Of a DNA stretch of 29,770 nucleotides, positions 4,667 through 27,697 are shown one piece after another; positions within the stretch are counted from its first letter, which is position 1; each line of letters begins with the position of its first letter. The notes under the pieces were generated by a model that saw nothing but the letters and a program-made list of their open reading frames with translations, did not search any database and was not told the origin of the DNA. This DNA is from a virus, in the IMG/VR virus record IMGVR_UViG_3300023179_000373, positions 1 to 29,770 of that record. The stretch is one strand, 5' to 3'. The position numbers were made by a program, and so were the translations under genes.

Positions 4667-4873
4667 TCAAACAATAAATCGCCTTAAAACCAACAACTCT
4701 TGGTCTACCCGAAGAGCATCACTACCGGCGTGCTTCACACGCCAATCAGATTCTGCAATCTCACTCATGAAGTAAAACTTGCCATCCCGATACTCAATAA
4801 GTTTCGCCCCATGAGCTTTCATGTACGCAGCCAAATGAATATCTCTCTTGGCTACAACAATACTGAAAATCAT
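4667..4873 (-). CDS. Small hypothetical protein, DUF5659-like (68 aa)
   Basis: The ATG overlaps the stop of the 92-aa gene (ATGA), which implies coupling; there is no independent SD. The sequence (KRDIHLAAYMKAHGAKLIEY, then RDGKFYFMSEIAESDWRV and ALRVDQELLVLRRFIV) resembles the short DUF5659-type pattern in which a helix LAAYLxAxGHxL is followed by a strand with FxF and a C-terminal helix. That match is from memory and tentative. The role is unknown; it sits within the fibre cluster. Confidence 0.6.
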   Translation of the reverse strand: MIFSIVVAKRDIHLAAYMKAHGAKLIEYRDGKFYFMSEIAESDWRVKHAGSDALRVDQELLVLRRFIV

Positions 4874-5148
4874 AAACTGAACATCACATTTGCACTCCCA
4901 CTGATCGGCTCAGTGAAAAAAACTATGATCTGGTTTTCACTGACAGCCTTCACCCCTGCAAACACCTGACGGTTGCTGGAGTCCATAAGCGATACAGAGA
5001 AGTTATACGTCCCAAGATTGTGGGTGATGACCCAAGTTGAAGACGGCGTTACAAAACGGTAAACCCTTGCCGCTGAACTTGGTCCTGCTCCACTCGCTCC
5101 CGTCCCGTATACTCTGCCATAAGACCTAGCAAAGTATTGAGTAGCCAT
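4870..5148 (-). CDS. Small fibre-domain protein (92 aa)
   Basis: After a Gly/Ser-rich N-terminus (about 1-28), residues 30-92 form a beta domain with STWVITHNLGTYNFSVSLMD, then SENQIIVFFTEPISGSANV. The same domain occurs inside the 570-aa fibre and at the end of the 516-aa fibre. As a free-standing copy it could be a fibre tip, cap or assembly partner. The ATG shares one base with the TAA of the upstream gene (TAATG) and overlaps the next start (ATGA), so the three genes are probably translated together. Confidence 0.7.
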   Translation of the reverse strand: MATQYFARSYGRVYGTGASGAGPSSAARVYRFVTPSSTWVITHNLGTYNFSVSLMDSSNRQVFAGVKAVSENQIIVFFTEPISGSANVMFSL

Positions 5149-15027: not shown

Positions 15028-15158
15028 GCAGGAGTCTTGGGCATCTTGGGTGCGGGCGGCAAAGTTTGACCGTTGAGTTTTTCACCGGCGGCTAGACGGT
15101 GTTTTTGTTTGACCAGCGCACCGGTCATGGGTACGGTGCCAGTTCCAGGCTTGTCCAT
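15024..15158 (-). CDS. Very small basic hypothetical protein (44 aa)
   Basis: This short gene has a strong SD (TAAGGAGCAACC) before its ATG at 15158 and sits tightly between the portal (9 bases upstream) and the 63-aa gene (GTGA overlap). It begins MDKPGTGTVPMTGALVKQKH and ends with a Pro/Lys-rich tail (LPPAPKMPKTPA). The good start signal and lack of any spare space argue that it is translated. No homology is recognised. Confidence 0.6.
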   Translation of the reverse strand: MDKPGTGTVPMTGALVKQKHRLAAGEKLNGQTLPPAPKMPKTPA

Positions 15159-19705: not shown

Positions 19706-21266
19706 ATGGGTTCACTCTTTCCCGCTTCTGCGGCTTCGGTTCGTCTGGGTCCTTTGCGCGGGGCAACTCGAACCAGCCGTCGTTCTTCAAGTAGATGATT
19801 GCTTGCGTGAAAGTGTCCACGTAATCGTCATGTTCGGCAACAGGAAACTTGGTCAATTGCTTCATGAATGCGCTGGCCCACGACACTGGGTGGCCGTGAT
19901 TTTTGCCGCTCTCGGGTACCCAAACCACCTCTAGCTCCAGCGTGGGCGCGGCCTGGTGTGCTCGGCTCACCTTGTCGGCGTTCCCTGGATTGTACCCGAT
20001 GGCGGGGACACGCGCCAGCCGCAGGTCTTGCAGCAGGGACTGACCGCTGGCCTTGGCCTCCACCAGCACACGGTCGGGTCGGCGCGCGCGGACGAACGGC
20101 ATGTGCTTGGTCGGGCCGCCGTACTCGGTCTGCCAACCCTTGATCGCCTTTTCGCGCAGCTCGGGGTAGCTGAGGTGATCGTCCCACGCGTCGATGAGCA
20201 TCACCTGCCGCTGGCCCTCGTGCGTGAACACAGCCCAGACGGTGCAGGCGGTCGGGTCGCCACTCGACTTCTCAGTGAACGCGCAGTCGTAGCTCTGCAG
20301 AACATACTCGAACTGCGGCAGCCCTTTGTCGTGCGGCCAGAGCTGAATGTGCTTGGTCTTCAGGATGCCGCCCTGTGCGGGTTGCGGGTCTTGCTGCAGC
20401 TGGCCCGCGGTGCCGTACACGCCCAGCAGCTGTTTCAGCTCGGTGATTTCGCGCGGCCCGAAGCGTTCGGGGCAGATGAGCTCGCCGACCTTGGTGCGCG
20501 GGTCGTACGTCCCCAGTGTCGTCTTGCGCCGCTTGCCATCCCACTCAGCGGGGATCATCAGGTGTTCCCAGCCGCCGATGTCGTCGATGATGTGTCCGCT
20601 GATGTCGCGCTCGTGAAGCCGCTGCATGATGGTGATCATGGCGTCACGCTTGGGATCATTGAGTCGGGTCGACCAGACGACATCGAACCACTCCAACGCG
20701 GTCTCGCGCATTGTGTCAGATTGCGCCTCTTGGGCGCTATGTGGGTCGTCTAGGATAAGCCTTGAGCCGCCCTCACCGGTGGCCGTACCGCCAACGCTAG
20801 TGGCCAGCCGGTACCCTGTCTTGTCGTTCTCGAATCGTTGCTTGGCGTTCTGGTCACCGGCGAGCGTGAACATGTGTCCCCAGCGCTCTTGGTACCATGG
20901 CGACTGCACGAGCCGCCGAGCCTTCAGGTTGTCGCGGATGCTGAGGTTGCCGCTGTATGATGCGCACAGGTACTTCTGCTCAGGCTGGGCCAGCCACTCC
21001 CACATTGGGAACATCACCGAGACGATGGTCGATTTCGAGTGTCGTGGCGGGATGTTGATGAGCAGCTTGCGCAGTTCACCGGCGCTGATGGCCTCCAAGT
21101 GTTCGCAGATCGCCTCGATGTGCCAGCTGGCAATGAACTGTATTCCTGGCTCGACGATCGGCCATGCTTGGCGAACGAATTCATACAGTGATCCGCTTGC
21201 CGCTCGCCTGTCTTGTTCACGCTTGATCGCCGCGCGCAGAACGTCCGGCGACACCGGCGCATTCAT
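19695..21266 (-). CDS. terL: Terminase large subunit (523 aa)
   Basis: This is the DNA-packaging motor and headful/cos nuclease. The ATPase half has a Walker-A-like PPRHSKST at residues 73-80 and a Walker-B-like RLILDDPH at 169-176, followed by the coupling segment DAMITIMQRLHERDISGHII. The nuclease half has an RNase-H-like core with acidic residues in YVLQSYDCAFTEKSSGDP (D327), RVLVEAKASGQSLLQDL (E403) and EHDDYVDTFTQAI (D481/D484). Length is normal for the family. The ATG shares a base with the small-terminase stop (TGATG). It is the second gene of the late operon. Confidence 0.93.
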   Translation of the reverse strand: MNAPVSPDVLRAAIKREQDRRAASGSLYEFVRQAWPIVEPGIQFIASWHIEAICEHLEAISAGELRKLLINIPPRHSKSTIVSVMFPMWEWLAQPEQKYLCASYSGNLSIRDNLKARRLVQSPWYQERWGHMFTLAGDQNAKQRFENDKTGYRLATSVGGTATGEGGSRLILDDPHSAQEAQSDTMRETALEWFDVVWSTRLNDPKRDAMITIMQRLHERDISGHIIDDIGGWEHLMIPAEWDGKRRKTTLGTYDPRTKVGELICPERFGPREITELKQLLGVYGTAGQLQQDPQPAQGGILKTKHIQLWPHDKGLPQFEYVLQSYDCAFTEKSSGDPTACTVWAVFTHEGQRQVMLIDAWDDHLSYPELREKAIKGWQTEYGGPTKHMPFVRARRPDRVLVEAKASGQSLLQDLRLARVPAIGYNPGNADKVSRAHQAAPTLELEVVWVPESGKNHGHPVSWASAFMKQLTKFPVAEHDDYVDTFTQAIIYLKNDGWFELPRAKDPDEPKPQKRERVNPYAV

Positions 21267-21682
21267 CAGCCGCTGGCCTTGCCTAGCAGGTTCGCGACCT
21301 GAGCCAGCTCAATGTCGCTCAACCCCTTCAGGTCGAGCGCCGCAACACTGATGGGGCCGCCGCCAGCGCCGGTCATCTCGGTGCGCGCCAGCTTCGGCAC
21401 GTGGTATTCGACGACACCCTGAAACAAGTTGAATGCCTTTTCCGGATTCGGCGGAACAACCCACAGCGGGTTGCCATCGCCGTCGCGCATTTGGTTCCCC
21501 TGAATGTCGTTGCGTGGGACGCCAGCCGCGACCGCATCAAGCCATTCCTGAAGCCGCTCTGCGTTGTTGTCGACGAACGACGCAATCGCTTGTCGCGCCT
21601 CGCGTGTCGCTTTGTTCGGCACTCCAGGTGGCCGACCGCCGTCCCCAGGCTTGCGTCCAGGCCGCGCTCGGTTTTGCTCCAT
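21266..21682 (-). CDS. terS: Probable terminase small subunit (138 aa)
   Basis: The gene lies directly upstream of and overlaps terL. The basic, Gly/Pro-rich N-terminus (ARPGRKPGDGGRPPGVPNKA, then TREARQAIASFVDNNAERLQ) resembles DUF5681-type and small-terminase N-termini (GRPxGxxNKxTxEAR), a putative DNA-recognition segment, and is followed by helical regions. ATG at 21682 is chosen with GGAGAG seven bases upstream; a TTG two codons earlier is less likely. It is the first gene of the leftward arm, so its promoter should lie in 21683-22117. The assignment rests on position plus this N-terminus. Confidence 0.7.
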   Translation of the reverse strand: MEQNRARPGRKPGDGGRPPGVPNKATREARQAIASFVDNNAERLQEWLDAVAAGVPRNDIQGNQMRDGDGNPLWVVPPNPEKAFNLFQGVVEYHVPKLARTEMTGAGGGPISVAALDLKGLSDIELAQVANLLGKASG

Positions 21683-21758
21683 TTTCAAGCTCTCCGGTTT
21701 TGTTGAATTGCCGCGCTCTGATTATCGCCGCAGTCTCTGCTCAAAGGCAATCGCTGAT

Positions 21759-21936
21759 CCCGAGATCCGAGATGCCCAAGATTTCCTATTGTTTTATTAT
21801 TTTAAATGTTTATTAATTTAATTATGTAATTTTCCAACAATTACTATCTTGGGTTTCTTGGGACTATGCTTCAATCTCGGGATCGGAATCCCAAGATGCC
21901 CGAGACGACCCCAAACCGTAATTCCGTGCCCGAGAT
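21759..21936. repeat. Array of CCC(G/A)AGAT octamers, direct and inverted
   Basis: On the plus strand: CCCGAGAT 21759-21766, CCGAGAT 21767-21773 (one base short), CCCAAGAT 21775-21782, CCCAAGAT 21890-21897, CCCGAGAC 21899-21906, CCCGAGAT 21929-21936. On the minus strand, seen as ATCTTGGG 21846-21853, TTCTTGGG 21855-21862 and ATCTCGGG 21874-21881. Neighbouring units are often 8-9 bases apart (full unit CCCRAGATG). The clustering and orientation suggest operators for a phage regulator, or replication-initiator sites. Confidence 0.75.
21781..21847. other. AT-rich island
   Basis: About 67 bases, almost all A and T (roughly nine G or C), in an otherwise GC-rich window. The octamer CCCAAGAT at 21775-21782 overlaps its left edge and the inverse ATCTTGGG at 21846-21853 its right edge. 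Such a block could be a DNA-unwinding element, a promoter core, or both. Confidence 0.6.
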
Positions 21937-22063
21937 AATCCCGCGGCGATCATCCATCGCCCCTAACTACTAAGCAGCCAACCCTAGTTGAGAGTCATAC
22001 CACGTCATCCCGTTGAAGAAAGTTGTTGCCTTATGCTTCAAGGTCAGGCAGAGTTCGTCTGCA

Positions 22064-22117: not shown

Positions 22118-22579
22118 ATGCCCCGTGCAGCCCGCCAACCCAGAACCGCCGCCTTCACCGAACTGCAAGCTGCGGCCAACTCAGTGAACGAGAACAAAGA
22201 TTGCGCAGTGAAGGCAGTCGCCATCGCCTGCAACGCCGACTACCACACCGTGCGCGACATGATGAACCAGATGGGTCGCAAGACTGGCAAAGGCACCGAA
22301 TGGTCAATCATCAACGACACCATCGACCGTCTGGGCTACGACAAGGTGAAGGTCGACCCAGCGACCATCATCGCCAAGTACCCCAAGGGCCACCGCGACG
22401 TGCTGAAGAGCGTGACCACCCATCACCCCGACCGCTTCCGCGATGTGTGGGCCGATGGCAAGACCTACCTCATGTACACCCGCGGCCACGTGCTCACCAT
22501 CGTCAACGGTGTCAACCACGACTGGACGCGCGGCACCGCCCACCGCTGCTACTGGCTGTGGGAGATCGTGCAACGCTAA
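22118..22579 (+). CDS. Papain-like cysteine-protease-fold protein (153 aa)
   Basis: ATG at 22118 has AGGAG upstream and is preferred to the in-frame ATG at 22013, which lies in the control region. The sequence has a likely catalytic Cys in ENKDCAVKAVAIA (C29), a later GHVLTIVNGVNHDWT with His124, and an HD pair at 134-135. This is the order Cys...His...Asp/Asn of small papain-like or C39/NlpC-type proteins, in which DCAVRA is followed by RGHAxAxxDGxxHDW. Such proteins occur widely in phages and their targets are mostly unknown. As the first early gene it may act on a host protein, but this is inference. The C-terminal HRCYWLWEI is also typical. Confidence 0.7.
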   Translation: MPRAARQPRTAAFTELQAAANSVNENKDCAVKAVAIACNADYHTVRDMMNQMGRKTGKGTEWSIINDTIDRLGYDKVKVDPATIIAKYPKGHRDVLKSVTTHHPDRFRDVWADGKTYLMYTRGHVLTIVNGVNHDWTRGTAHRCYWLWEIVQR

Positions 22580-22700
22580 GCCTAACAGCAGCCGCCGGTG
22601 GTTGCCGGTAAGCCGTTGTACCGTAACAGAAATCTCAATAAGTCCAAAAATAATTGCGAAACTTGTTGCCGTCACCGCAGTTTCAGGCATACTTCGTATC

Positions 22701-22721
22701 ACGGTGATCAAACGACACCGT
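22701..22721 (+). promoter_or_regulatory. Inverted repeat upstream of the leader of the gene at 22745
   Basis: ACGGTG (22701-22706) and CACCGT (22716-22721) are exactly complementary with a 9-base loop. The repeat abuts the leader AACTCAGAAAGGAA (22724-22737). It could be an operator or an RNA hairpin that controls the start. A similar arrangement occurs at 26303-26319. Confidence 0.45.
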
Positions 22722-23775: not shown

Positions 23776-23792
23776 CCCGAGATGCCCGAGAA
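23776..23792 (+). repeat. Two CCCGAGA(T/A) octamers before the primase gene
   Basis: CCCGAGAT at 23776-23783 and CCCGAGAA at 23785-23792 form the same 9-base spaced pair as in the divergent control region. They lie 34-50 bases before the primase start, flanked by TTTCTA and TAGAAA. A regulator of the main region could also act here. Confidence 0.65.
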
Positions 23793-23825: not shown

Positions 23826-24755
23826 ATGTCGGAAGCAGAGGCGTTCCTCACCGAGCTGAGCGAAGGTCTGGACCGAGAAGAGCGGTTGATCCTCTGCGGC
23901 TTCCCTGGAGACCCTTATGAGGCTGGCCCTGTAGCTTGGAAGCCTAAGCCTTGGCGCTCTGGATCTGAGTTCCCATTCCGCGGCGAGCTGGACAACGCCT
24001 ACGTGACCGTCGCTGGATTCAAGCGTGCCGCCGACAACACCTACCGCCGCCGCACCGAGACGTTCGGTTGTGGGCTGGCCTTGATGGTGGACGACGTTGG
24101 CACCAAGGTCGACCGCGCGTTCGTGGAGGAGATGCAGCCCACGTGGAAGATTGAGACCTCACCTGGGAACGAGCAGTGGTGGTACTTTCTGGACCAGCCC
24201 GAGCGCGACATGGTGCGCTTCGACGGTCTGATCCGCGCATTCATCAGCGGCAAGTTGCTGGGCGCAGATCCTGGGATGTCGGGCGTGACCCGCGTTGGAC
24301 GTTTGCCTGGACACCTGAACGGCAAGAAGGCCTACGAGGGTTGGATCACCCGCACCGCGGAGCGCAACGGCACCCGCTGGTCGCCGCAAGACCTTCTGGA
24401 CGGGTTCAACTTGCAGATCGTTGGCCGTCGCGTTTCACGCACCAAGTTGCCGACCGAAGAGGCCATCGAACGCAACCGCATGTTCGGCAACACCTACAAA
24501 TGGCTGGACCAACGCAACATGCTCAAGAAGCACGAGCCGGATCCGTCTGGATGGACAGAGATGACCTGTCCGTGGTACGAGAGCCACACCAACAGCGTGG
24601 ACAACGGCGCAGCCATCCGCGAACCTGCGGCTGAGAACGATTACTATGGTGCGTTCCGTTGCCACCATGGCCATTGTGTCTCCAAGGGGTGGTCCGACCT
24701 GACCGAGTGGGTCAATGAGCAGTCGATAGAAGAACTGGAACGAGCCGCAGGATGA
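23826..24755 (+). CDS. AEP-type (RepB-like) primase with zinc-binding tail (309 aa)
   Basis: This is the likely primer-making enzyme for phage DNA replication. The metal-binding motif is ALMVDDVGTK (D89, D90), followed by WKIETSPGNEQWWYFLDQ (about 107-124) and GVTRVGRLPGHLNGKK (153-168), the last matching the RxPGxxNxK motif of RepB/PrimPol-like archaeo-eukaryotic primases. The C-terminal part has CPWYESHTNS (C248) and FRCHHGHCVSKGW (C279, C284), a zinc-knuckle pattern familiar from phage primases. The downstream SF3 helicase starts inside its stop (ATGA), so the two are co-translated. Start and SD are clear. No polymerase domain is fused. Confidence 0.8.
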   Translation: MSEAEAFLTELSEGLDREERLILCGFPGDPYEAGPVAWKPKPWRSGSEFPFRGELDNAYVTVAGFKRAADNTYRRRTETFGCGLALMVDDVGTKVDRAFVEEMQPTWKIETSPGNEQWWYFLDQPERDMVRFDGLIRAFISGKLLGADPGMSGVTRVGRLPGHLNGKKAYEGWITRTAERNGTRWSPQDLLDGFNLQIVGRRVSRTKLPTEEAIERNRMFGNTYKWLDQRNMLKKHEPDPSGWTEMTCPWYESHTNSVDNGAAIREPAAENDYYGAFRCHHGHCVSKGWSDLTEWVNEQSIEELERAAG

Positions 24756-26254
24756 CCACCATTGATGAACGCACGGCGGCGCGTGAAGCCGCCCTCCAAG
24801 ATATTGTCGCCAATAGCCGTCGCCTTGCCAGACCAGAAGACTATGTTTTCGACAAGGCTCAGGAAGCGTTCTGGGATCTGCGCGACGGCACACAACATTC
24901 TGAAAAGGCTGTGGACGCCTCCATCCCTCTGGAGCTGTGGCGAGTTGAGGTTGAAGAAGGTGACGACGAAGCGCCAGCCGAAGGGCGACGGGGTCGTGGT
25001 CGTCCGCGCCGCCGCCGCGAGCGGTTGATCCCACCGAGCCGTGACATCATGCGGGTTGAGAACGATCAGTTCGTGGAAGGCTCCACGTGGTGGCCTGGAG
25101 AGACGCAAATCATCCGCGACATCTTCATCGACTCCAACGGTTGGCGTGCAGCATCTGGACGACGGATCTACAACAAGTACCTGCCGCCGCCCGAGGTGAA
25201 GCCTGGAGACTACAACGCCACGCCGTGGATTGACCACGTGGTGAAGTTGTGGCCTGAGCCGGTTGAGCACAATTTCTTCTTCGACTTCTGCGCGCACATG
25301 CTGCAGCACCCAGAAGAGAAATGCAATGCCGCCATCGTCCTGAGTGGCACACAAGGCATCGGTAAAGATGCAGCGCTCATGCCGGTGAAGTCAGCTATCG
25401 GCAACTGGAATACCAAGAACATCGACCCAGACGAGTTGTTCAGCCCGTACAAGCCATGGCTGGAAACTCTTATGCTGGTCGTCGACGAAGTGCGACCCAC
25501 CAAGGACGAGTTCCACGCCAGCTCTGCGTACAACATCCTGAAGCCGATGATTGTGGCGCCGCCCGACACGCTGCCGCTCAATGACAAATATGCCAAGTTG
25601 CGTCACATCATCAACCGGCTGCGCGTGTTCATCACGACCAACGATTGGATGTCCATGTACATCCCTCCAGAAGACCGCCGCATGTTCATCATGCATTCCC
25701 ACCTGCCGCAAAGGTGGCATGAGCAGGAAAATGAACCTGAGTACTTCACGCGCCTGTTCGACTGGTTCTATTCCGGCGGCTGCGAAGCCGTTGCTGCGTG
25801 GCTGTCTACTCGCGACCTGAGCCAGTTCAACCCCAAGGCGCAAGTGACGCGCACGTCTGGATGGGGAGCGGTCGCTGCCAGCTGGGGCGAGCCGGAAGAC
25901 GCCGTCTGTTGGGTGCTGGACTATCTGGGCAATCCTGACGTGTTGCTCGGGCAAGAACTGGCACTGCCGCAGTTCGACCACCGCGAGGAAGTCTCCAACA
26001 TGCTGAAGTCGCCGCGCAAGATTGCGCACCGCATGAACCGCGCTGGTTATGTCAATGTTCCTGCACCCAATGGAGACCGCTGGGTGTTCCGTCACGAGGG
26101 CAAGGTCTCTCGTGCACGTTACGCGTTCGTCAAGGCAACCCTAACCCGCGACATCAACGCCGCGGCGGCGATGGTCAAGGCCCACGGTGAGAAGTTGCTG
26201 GCCAACACGCAGGATGGTCAGGTGATCCCCCTGCAGCAGAAAAAGTTTAAATAA
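24752..26254 (+). CDS. SF3 / DUF5906-type replicative helicase (500 aa)
   Basis: This is an ATPase that probably unwinds DNA for replication together with the primase. Walker A is GTQGIGKD (199-206), Walker B is MLVVDEV (241-247), the motif-C-like segment RVFITTND (291-298) ends in Asn, and a downstream EDRRMF (R309/R310) could supply the arginine finger. The N-terminus (1-110) has a very basic linker (RRGRGRPRRRRER, 79-91), possibly for DNA binding. The C-terminal half has conserved-looking LFDWFYSGGCEAVAAWLSTR. The start overlaps the primase stop by four bases. Length is normal for such phage helicases. Confidence 0.82.
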   Translation: MTTIDERTAAREAALQDIVANSRRLARPEDYVFDKAQEAFWDLRDGTQHSEKAVDASIPLELWRVEVEEGDDEAPAEGRRGRGRPRRRRERLIPPSRDIMRVENDQFVEGSTWWPGETQIIRDIFIDSNGWRAASGRRIYNKYLPPPEVKPGDYNATPWIDHVVKLWPEPVEHNFFFDFCAHMLQHPEEKCNAAIVLSGTQGIGKDAALMPVKSAIGNWNTKNIDPDELFSPYKPWLETLMLVVDEVRPTKDEFHASSAYNILKPMIVAPPDTLPLNDKYAKLRHIINRLRVFITTNDWMSMYIPPEDRRMFIMHSHLPQRWHEQENEPEYFTRLFDWFYSGGCEAVAAWLSTRDLSQFNPKAQVTRTSGWGAVAASWGEPEDAVCWVLDYLGNPDVLLGQELALPQFDHREEVSNMLKSPRKIAHRMNRAGYVNVPAPNGDRWVFRHEGKVSRARYAFVKATLTRDINAAAAMVKAHGEKLLANTQDGQVIPLQQKKFK

Positions 26255-27379: not shown

Positions 27380-27697
27380 GTGTCTACCGTTAACCCGTAT
27401 AAGGAAGGAACAATGAGCCACGCTCTCCAAGAGGCCATCAGCAAGCAGACTCCGATCGCACCGCGCGAGAAGGGCGTCGAAAAGCGCGTCATTATCAGGA
27501 AGGTGCGCGCCACGTTCGAAGGTACTTCCAAGCCGCAAAGCGCATCGATCCGTGCCGCCGTGCTCAAGTTCATCCAGGACGCGCCCGAGCATACGACCAC
27601 GGTCGAGGCTCTGGAAGAGCACTTCAAGCAGCCGGTTCGCGGCTTCCTCCAGAAGTTGCTGGAGAAGAACCACATCGCCGTGGTAGCTGACGAATGA
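27380..27697 (+). CDS. Small hypothetical early protein (105 aa)
   Basis: Two starts are plausible: GTG at 27380, placed by leader copy 5, and ATG at 27413, which has its own AAGGAAGGAACA. I chose GTG because the leader-to-start distance matches the other copies. The protein is basic in the middle (KGVEKRVIIRKVRATFEG) and ends with an alpha-helical, winged-helix-like region (SIRAAVLKFIQDAPEHTTTV, then EALEEHFKQPVRGFLQKLLE). A DNA-binding role is possible. The stop overlaps the next start (ATGA). Confidence 0.6.
   Translation: MSTVNPYKEGTMSHALQEAISKQTPIAPREKGVEKRVIIRKVRATFEGTSKPQSASIRAAVLKFIQDAPEHTTTVEALEEHFKQPVRGFLQKLLEKNHIAVVADE

Follow-up and report, generated by a model that had tools for sequence, protein, structure and literature searches.

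A conserved octamer array beside the terminase genes is a probable iteron-type replication origin of uncultivated tailed phages

In iteron plasmids of the RK2 and P1 type, an AT-rich element adjoins the iterons and further copies of the site serve as operators at the initiator promoter, an arrangement resembling that proposed for the locus described here; the replication initiators of such plasmids often hold down their own operon. What sets these plasmids apart is that Rep is not itself a helicase but loads the host DnaB. The alpha protein of phage P4 is a primase-helicase with an origin-binding C-terminal domain and repeats at two sites (ori and crr), but it is a fused protein of a satellite phage. 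In the case of SaPI Rep and Cch2, the C-terminal domain binds repeats located directly downstream of its own gene (PMC7581432). Our locus shares with these SaPI and SCCmec systems a helicase with short repeats downstream of its gene, in most relatives, and a primase gene alongside (PMC7581432), and the predicted C-terminal winged helix of its helicase would be the counterpart of their repeat-binding domain, whereas its array is found in tailed-phage genomes, its RepB-type AEP primase is a separate protein and iterons are also present before the primase. The primase-polymerase of phage NrS-1 similarly combines an AEP primase with a D5-type helicase and an 8-nt recognition sequence (PMC7102993); however, it is one fused protein, and its two genomic 8-nt copies are read on a single-stranded template and form no inward-facing array. 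Plasmid pRN1 likewise has an AEP, an SF3 helicase and a winged helix, and the sequence essential to its origin follows directly after the gene (PMC4234260), but its origin is described as a stem-loop without iterons, its protein is fused and it has a separate repressor, ORF56.

The DNA analysed here, hereafter the window, is the whole 29,770-nucleotide stretch of IMG/VR virus record IMGVR_UViG_3300023179_000373. Its initial annotation had pointed out nine CCC(G/A)AGAT-type octamers in both orientations at 21759-21936 and two further copies before the primase gene, and all eleven were located (Table 1). The 180 bp of the array hold six exact copies of CCCRAGAT and three with one mismatch, while the whole window has nine exact copies against 1.5 expected; none of 2000 dinucleotide shuffles of the window produced a 180-bp stretch with more than three exact copies, or with more than five when one mismatch was allowed (six and nine in the array). 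Since CCCRAGAT was chosen after looking at the data, conservation in relatives is the independent evidence and outweighs the count. Both lines of evidence agree, the motif being neither as frequent elsewhere nor unconserved, and the octamer observation is thus confirmed. Small corrections concern further copies: CCCAAGAT and CCCAAGTT additionally occur at 5011 and 5031, over a minus-strand ORF (4870-5148), and a tandem pair, CCCAAGATGCCCAAGAC, lies on the minus strand at 15034-15050. The latter was dropped as a further site because it sits inside a short reading frame (...PPAPKMPKTPA), and it is probably a coding coincidence.

Table 1. Coordinates of the array, the primase pair and neighbouring features in the window
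Feature	Position	Strand	Remarks
Terminase small subunit gene (terS), neighbour of the array, not the proposed binder	21266..21688	-	Position and conservation with terL; no family match
Sigma70-like promoter TTGCCT-18-GATAAT toward terS	21721..21750	-	Just outside array; no more than a consensus match (0.8 chance matches expected)
Left iteron set: CCCGAGAT (21759), TCCGAGAT (21766), CCCAAGAT (21775)	21759..21782	+	Points at AT-rich core; conserved in relatives
Inner box TTTCCTATTGTT	21782-21793		Recurs in relatives
AT-rich core, candidate DNA-unwinding element	21783..21845		86% AT
Inner box CCAACAATTACT	21834-21845		Recurs in relatives
Right iteron set	21846-21853, 21855-21862 (CCCAAGAA), 21874-21881	-	Core-facing; first two 9 bp apart
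Outer iterons: CCCAAGAT (21890), CCCGAGAC (21899), CCCGAGAT (21929)	21890..21936	+	
153-aa protein	22118-22579		phrog_3754 match, unknown function
Iteron pair CCCGAGATGCCCGAGAA, candidate operator	23776..23792 (23776-23783, 23785-23792)	+	About 34 bp before primase start; overlaps possible -10 (GAGAAT)
AEP primase, RepB_primase	23826..24755	+	PF16793 / phrog_4861
SF3/D5-type helicase (DUF5906), proposed initiator	24752..26254	+	PF19263 above cut-off

Relatives were drawn from viral contigs via the terminase, the neighbouring gene, the primase and the helicase, and the array is conserved across dozens of them, recurring upstream of terS. Repeated sites beside an AT-rich candidate unwinding element, as expected of an iteron-type origin, are present: the core of the window falls in its AT-richest 63-bp stretch (86% AT, against 44% for the window overall), and in 20 of 21 loci that have the common helicase type the octamers nearest to the AT-rich core face it from both sides, the sole exception (L112) being cut by the contig end. 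In most loci the gap between the innermost octamers is 64-83 bp, and the spacing within pairs is mostly 9 bp. Recurring boxes mark the two edges of the core, TAATTGTT at one and ACAATAGG at the opposite one. GC skew around the array and the primase pair gave no origin signal. In L196 and L197, distant relatives whose putative recognition helix differs (NAKNFHFKM), dense TCCGCGCGGA repeats surround an AT core downstream of the helicase.

In most relatives the genes from thyX to that of the 152-aa protein run leftward and are followed by the octamer pair; next come primase, helicase, array, terS and terL, which share the rightward direction. In the window and its closest relatives, primase and helicase have moved and taken the other orientation, the array having stayed with terS and the pair with the primase. 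Because of this relocation, the divergent setting of the array is a feature of the window clade only, so that the description of the site as a divergent control region is true of that clade, but most relatives have the array between a co-directional helicase and terminase. As regards the window itself, similar stretches at 22640-22720 and 22020-22060, recognized by eye, have TTGTTGCC followed about 17 bases on by CAGGCAnAnTTCGT; they precede the genes for the 153-aa and 152-aa proteins and may represent shared early promoters.

As judged from sequence comparison, the array follows the module of RepB-type primase and DUF5906 helicase and not the terminase. A cluster of CCRAGA sites was found in all 11 terL relatives with a window-type helicase and in 3 of 18 without it, these three all at the bare threshold of three sites (loci with at least 4 kb visible upstream; Fisher p=1e-5, an indicative figure only, as relatedness is ignored). 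Moreover, in L117, L127 and L128 the same iteron core adjoins terminases of other families (phrog_9/83, 1482 and 5601). Conversely, L025 has a terL 82% identical but encodes a 711-aa primase/polymerase, and at the same place carries nine-fold CGAACGAT-type repeats (CCGAACGATTAC); in L060, TCGACGA repeats occupy this place beside a distant helicase (28% identical).

The pair before the primase is found in many relatives in the form CCCGAGAtgCCCGAGAAT, about 35 bp ahead of the start codon, while L099, L101, L102 and L128 have no clear pair at this position. Where the array differs, the pair tends to differ with it: L117 and L119 have an ACCRAGAT array and their own primase pair follows suit, wholly or partly, and in L112, of the CCTRAGA type, the array reads CCTGAGAT and the site ahead of the primase CCTAAGAA. 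Overall, pairs fit their own array better than shuffled partners (permutation p=0.001, relatedness ignored). Because array and pair diverge jointly, the simplest account, supported by these comparisons, would be that a single phage-encoded factor reads both. The earlier suggestion of a single phage regulator thus survives as a shared factor with possible autoregulation at the primase pair, but not as an early/late switch in its basic role. The 105-aa zinc-ribbon/HTH protein that had been suggested as the binder was rejected, as it was not found in many relatives that bear the array, L109, L115, L117, L119, L127 and L128 among them.

Taken together, these data make it probable that the phage replicates from the array as an iteron-type origin, that the initiator binding there is its own helicase and that the pair at the primase promoter acts as an operator; between the regulator sites and the initiator sites offered by the initial annotation, the evidence favours the latter. 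The octamers would be double-stranded sites for the C-terminal winged helix of the SF3/DUF5906 helicase, and helicase rings would be loaded on both flanks of the AT-rich core, one at each of the two iteron sets that face it. The rings would then melt the core, starting replication at the array, and the RepB-type primase encoded beside the helicase would prime the exposed single strands. We infer helicase loading, core melting and AEP priming because the layout of array and operon matches the one reported for SaPI and SCCmec. At the pair upstream of the primase the same helicase may repress its own operon, and the overlap of the pair with a possible -10 fits such autorepression. The iterons lie directly downstream of the helicase gene in most relatives; it must be taken into account that in the window clade the rearrangement has separated the helicase from the array, which remains with terS.

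The helicase is the proposed initiator. The SF3/D5-type AAA+ helicase of a SaPI/SCCmec-type replicon is recognizable in the PF19263 match and in the closest solved structure by sequence and fold, the helicase region of NrS-1 polymerase (6k9c), with weaker fold matches to the SaPI5 primase-helicase (7ola) and ASFV PrimPol. AlphaFold predicts a winged helix at the C terminus (residues about 384-485, pLDDT mostly 83-90), with a putative recognition helix, RKIAHRMNRA, at residues 421-430, in a model that is only fair overall (mean pLDDT 69.5). At this helix, each of the 21 loci whose iterons are of the CYRAG type has the motif KSPRK/R, which is altered in eight others, mostly with other repeats and for the most part distant relatives. 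The match between helix and iterons comes from few independent changes, in L114, L121 and the distant L132, L134, L192, L195 and L197, and the iterons of several distant relatives were called by eye. L114 and L121 fall within or beside the common group in the tree, with weak support, and L121 is a mixed case, with an altered helix motif and yet a CCCGAGTT pair kept beside the core.

With a sigma70-like terS promoter immediately flanking the array, late transcription may be affected as well. More speculatively, the helicase could have three roles through the same octamers, firing the origin, repressing the primase-helicase operon and, by its occupancy of the array, gating the terS promoter, with recognition helix and octamers as a co-evolving specificity pair. 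If this tentative extension were true, the late packaging genes would open only as replication proceeds, and the co-evolution would keep the origins of related phages apart.

A different explanation is that the array is an operator for a phage transcription regulator, repressor or activator, through which both the late terS promoter and the primase operon would be switched, with no role in replication; the binder could be a small winged-helix-like protein such as that encoded at 27380-27697. The position of the terS-ward promoter, with similar elements read by eye in relatives, and the overlap of the pair with the possible primase -10 agree with this, and any shared trans factor would explain the joint divergence of pair and array. 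We nevertheless consider it unlikely. The distance between promoter and array varies (10 bp in the window against about 50 bp in L009), inward-facing sites that enclose an AT-rich core and conserved inner boxes go beyond what an operator requires, the repeats change upon exchange of the replication module and the candidate protein has no family match. Divergent promoters throughout the lineage, as expected for an early/late operator, were not observed either, helicase, array and terminase being co-directional in most relatives, which argues against the divergent early/late switch formerly put forward as the basic role.

It is even less likely that the array is a pRN1-type stem-loop origin, in which the inverted iterons would extrude a hairpin with an AT-rich loop where the primase-helicase assembles, the stem mattering and not the octamers. 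The array does fold as single-stranded DNA (z=-6.4 in the window and z=-9.9 in L128; the stretch folded for L009 spans just part of that array and is uninformative), and pRN1 depends on a stem-loop of 100 bp that lies downstream of its AEP-SF3-winged-helix gene, with something similar having been proposed for phages (PMC4234260). However, any iteron present in inverted copies would fold likewise, so that the folding adds no evidence of its own, and the same octamers stand before the primase as direct pairs with no inverted partner. A packaging site (cos/pac) whose repeats would bind TerS, comparable to the R sites of lambda cosB, is highly improbable, for although terS directly follows the array in the window and terminase genes are close to it in the relatives examined, the repeats do not accompany the terminase genes that would read them: they track the replication module, the same core adjoins unrelated TerS/TerL families, phages whose terL is about 80% identical but whose replication module differs lack the array, and a pair before the primase would not be expected.

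The reading of the array as an origin bound by the helicase would give a widespread group of uncultivated tailed phages a mapped origin together with its initiator and recognition word, and would assign origin binding to a member of the DUF5906 family. No description of this origin was found in the open-access literature, most subscription journals lying outside the scope of the search. The relatives offer octamers and recognition helices that are naturally matched, so that the rule by which these helicases recognise DNA is open to direct testing.

A related primase, about 30% identical, is present in many cultured Pbunaviruses of Pseudomonas aeruginosa. In Pseudomonas phage PaGU11 (L144, 10135-11120), the noncoding region after the second primase/helicase gene has AGTAATTTGG/TAATTTGGT repeats next to a segment rich in AT, and this region may be the counterpart of the proposed origin in cultured Pbunaviruses. 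In Xanthomonas phage XcP1 (L145, 9780-10740), four tandem copies of a unit with ACCCCAGAACA sit in a long noncoding region after a helicase-type primase gene.
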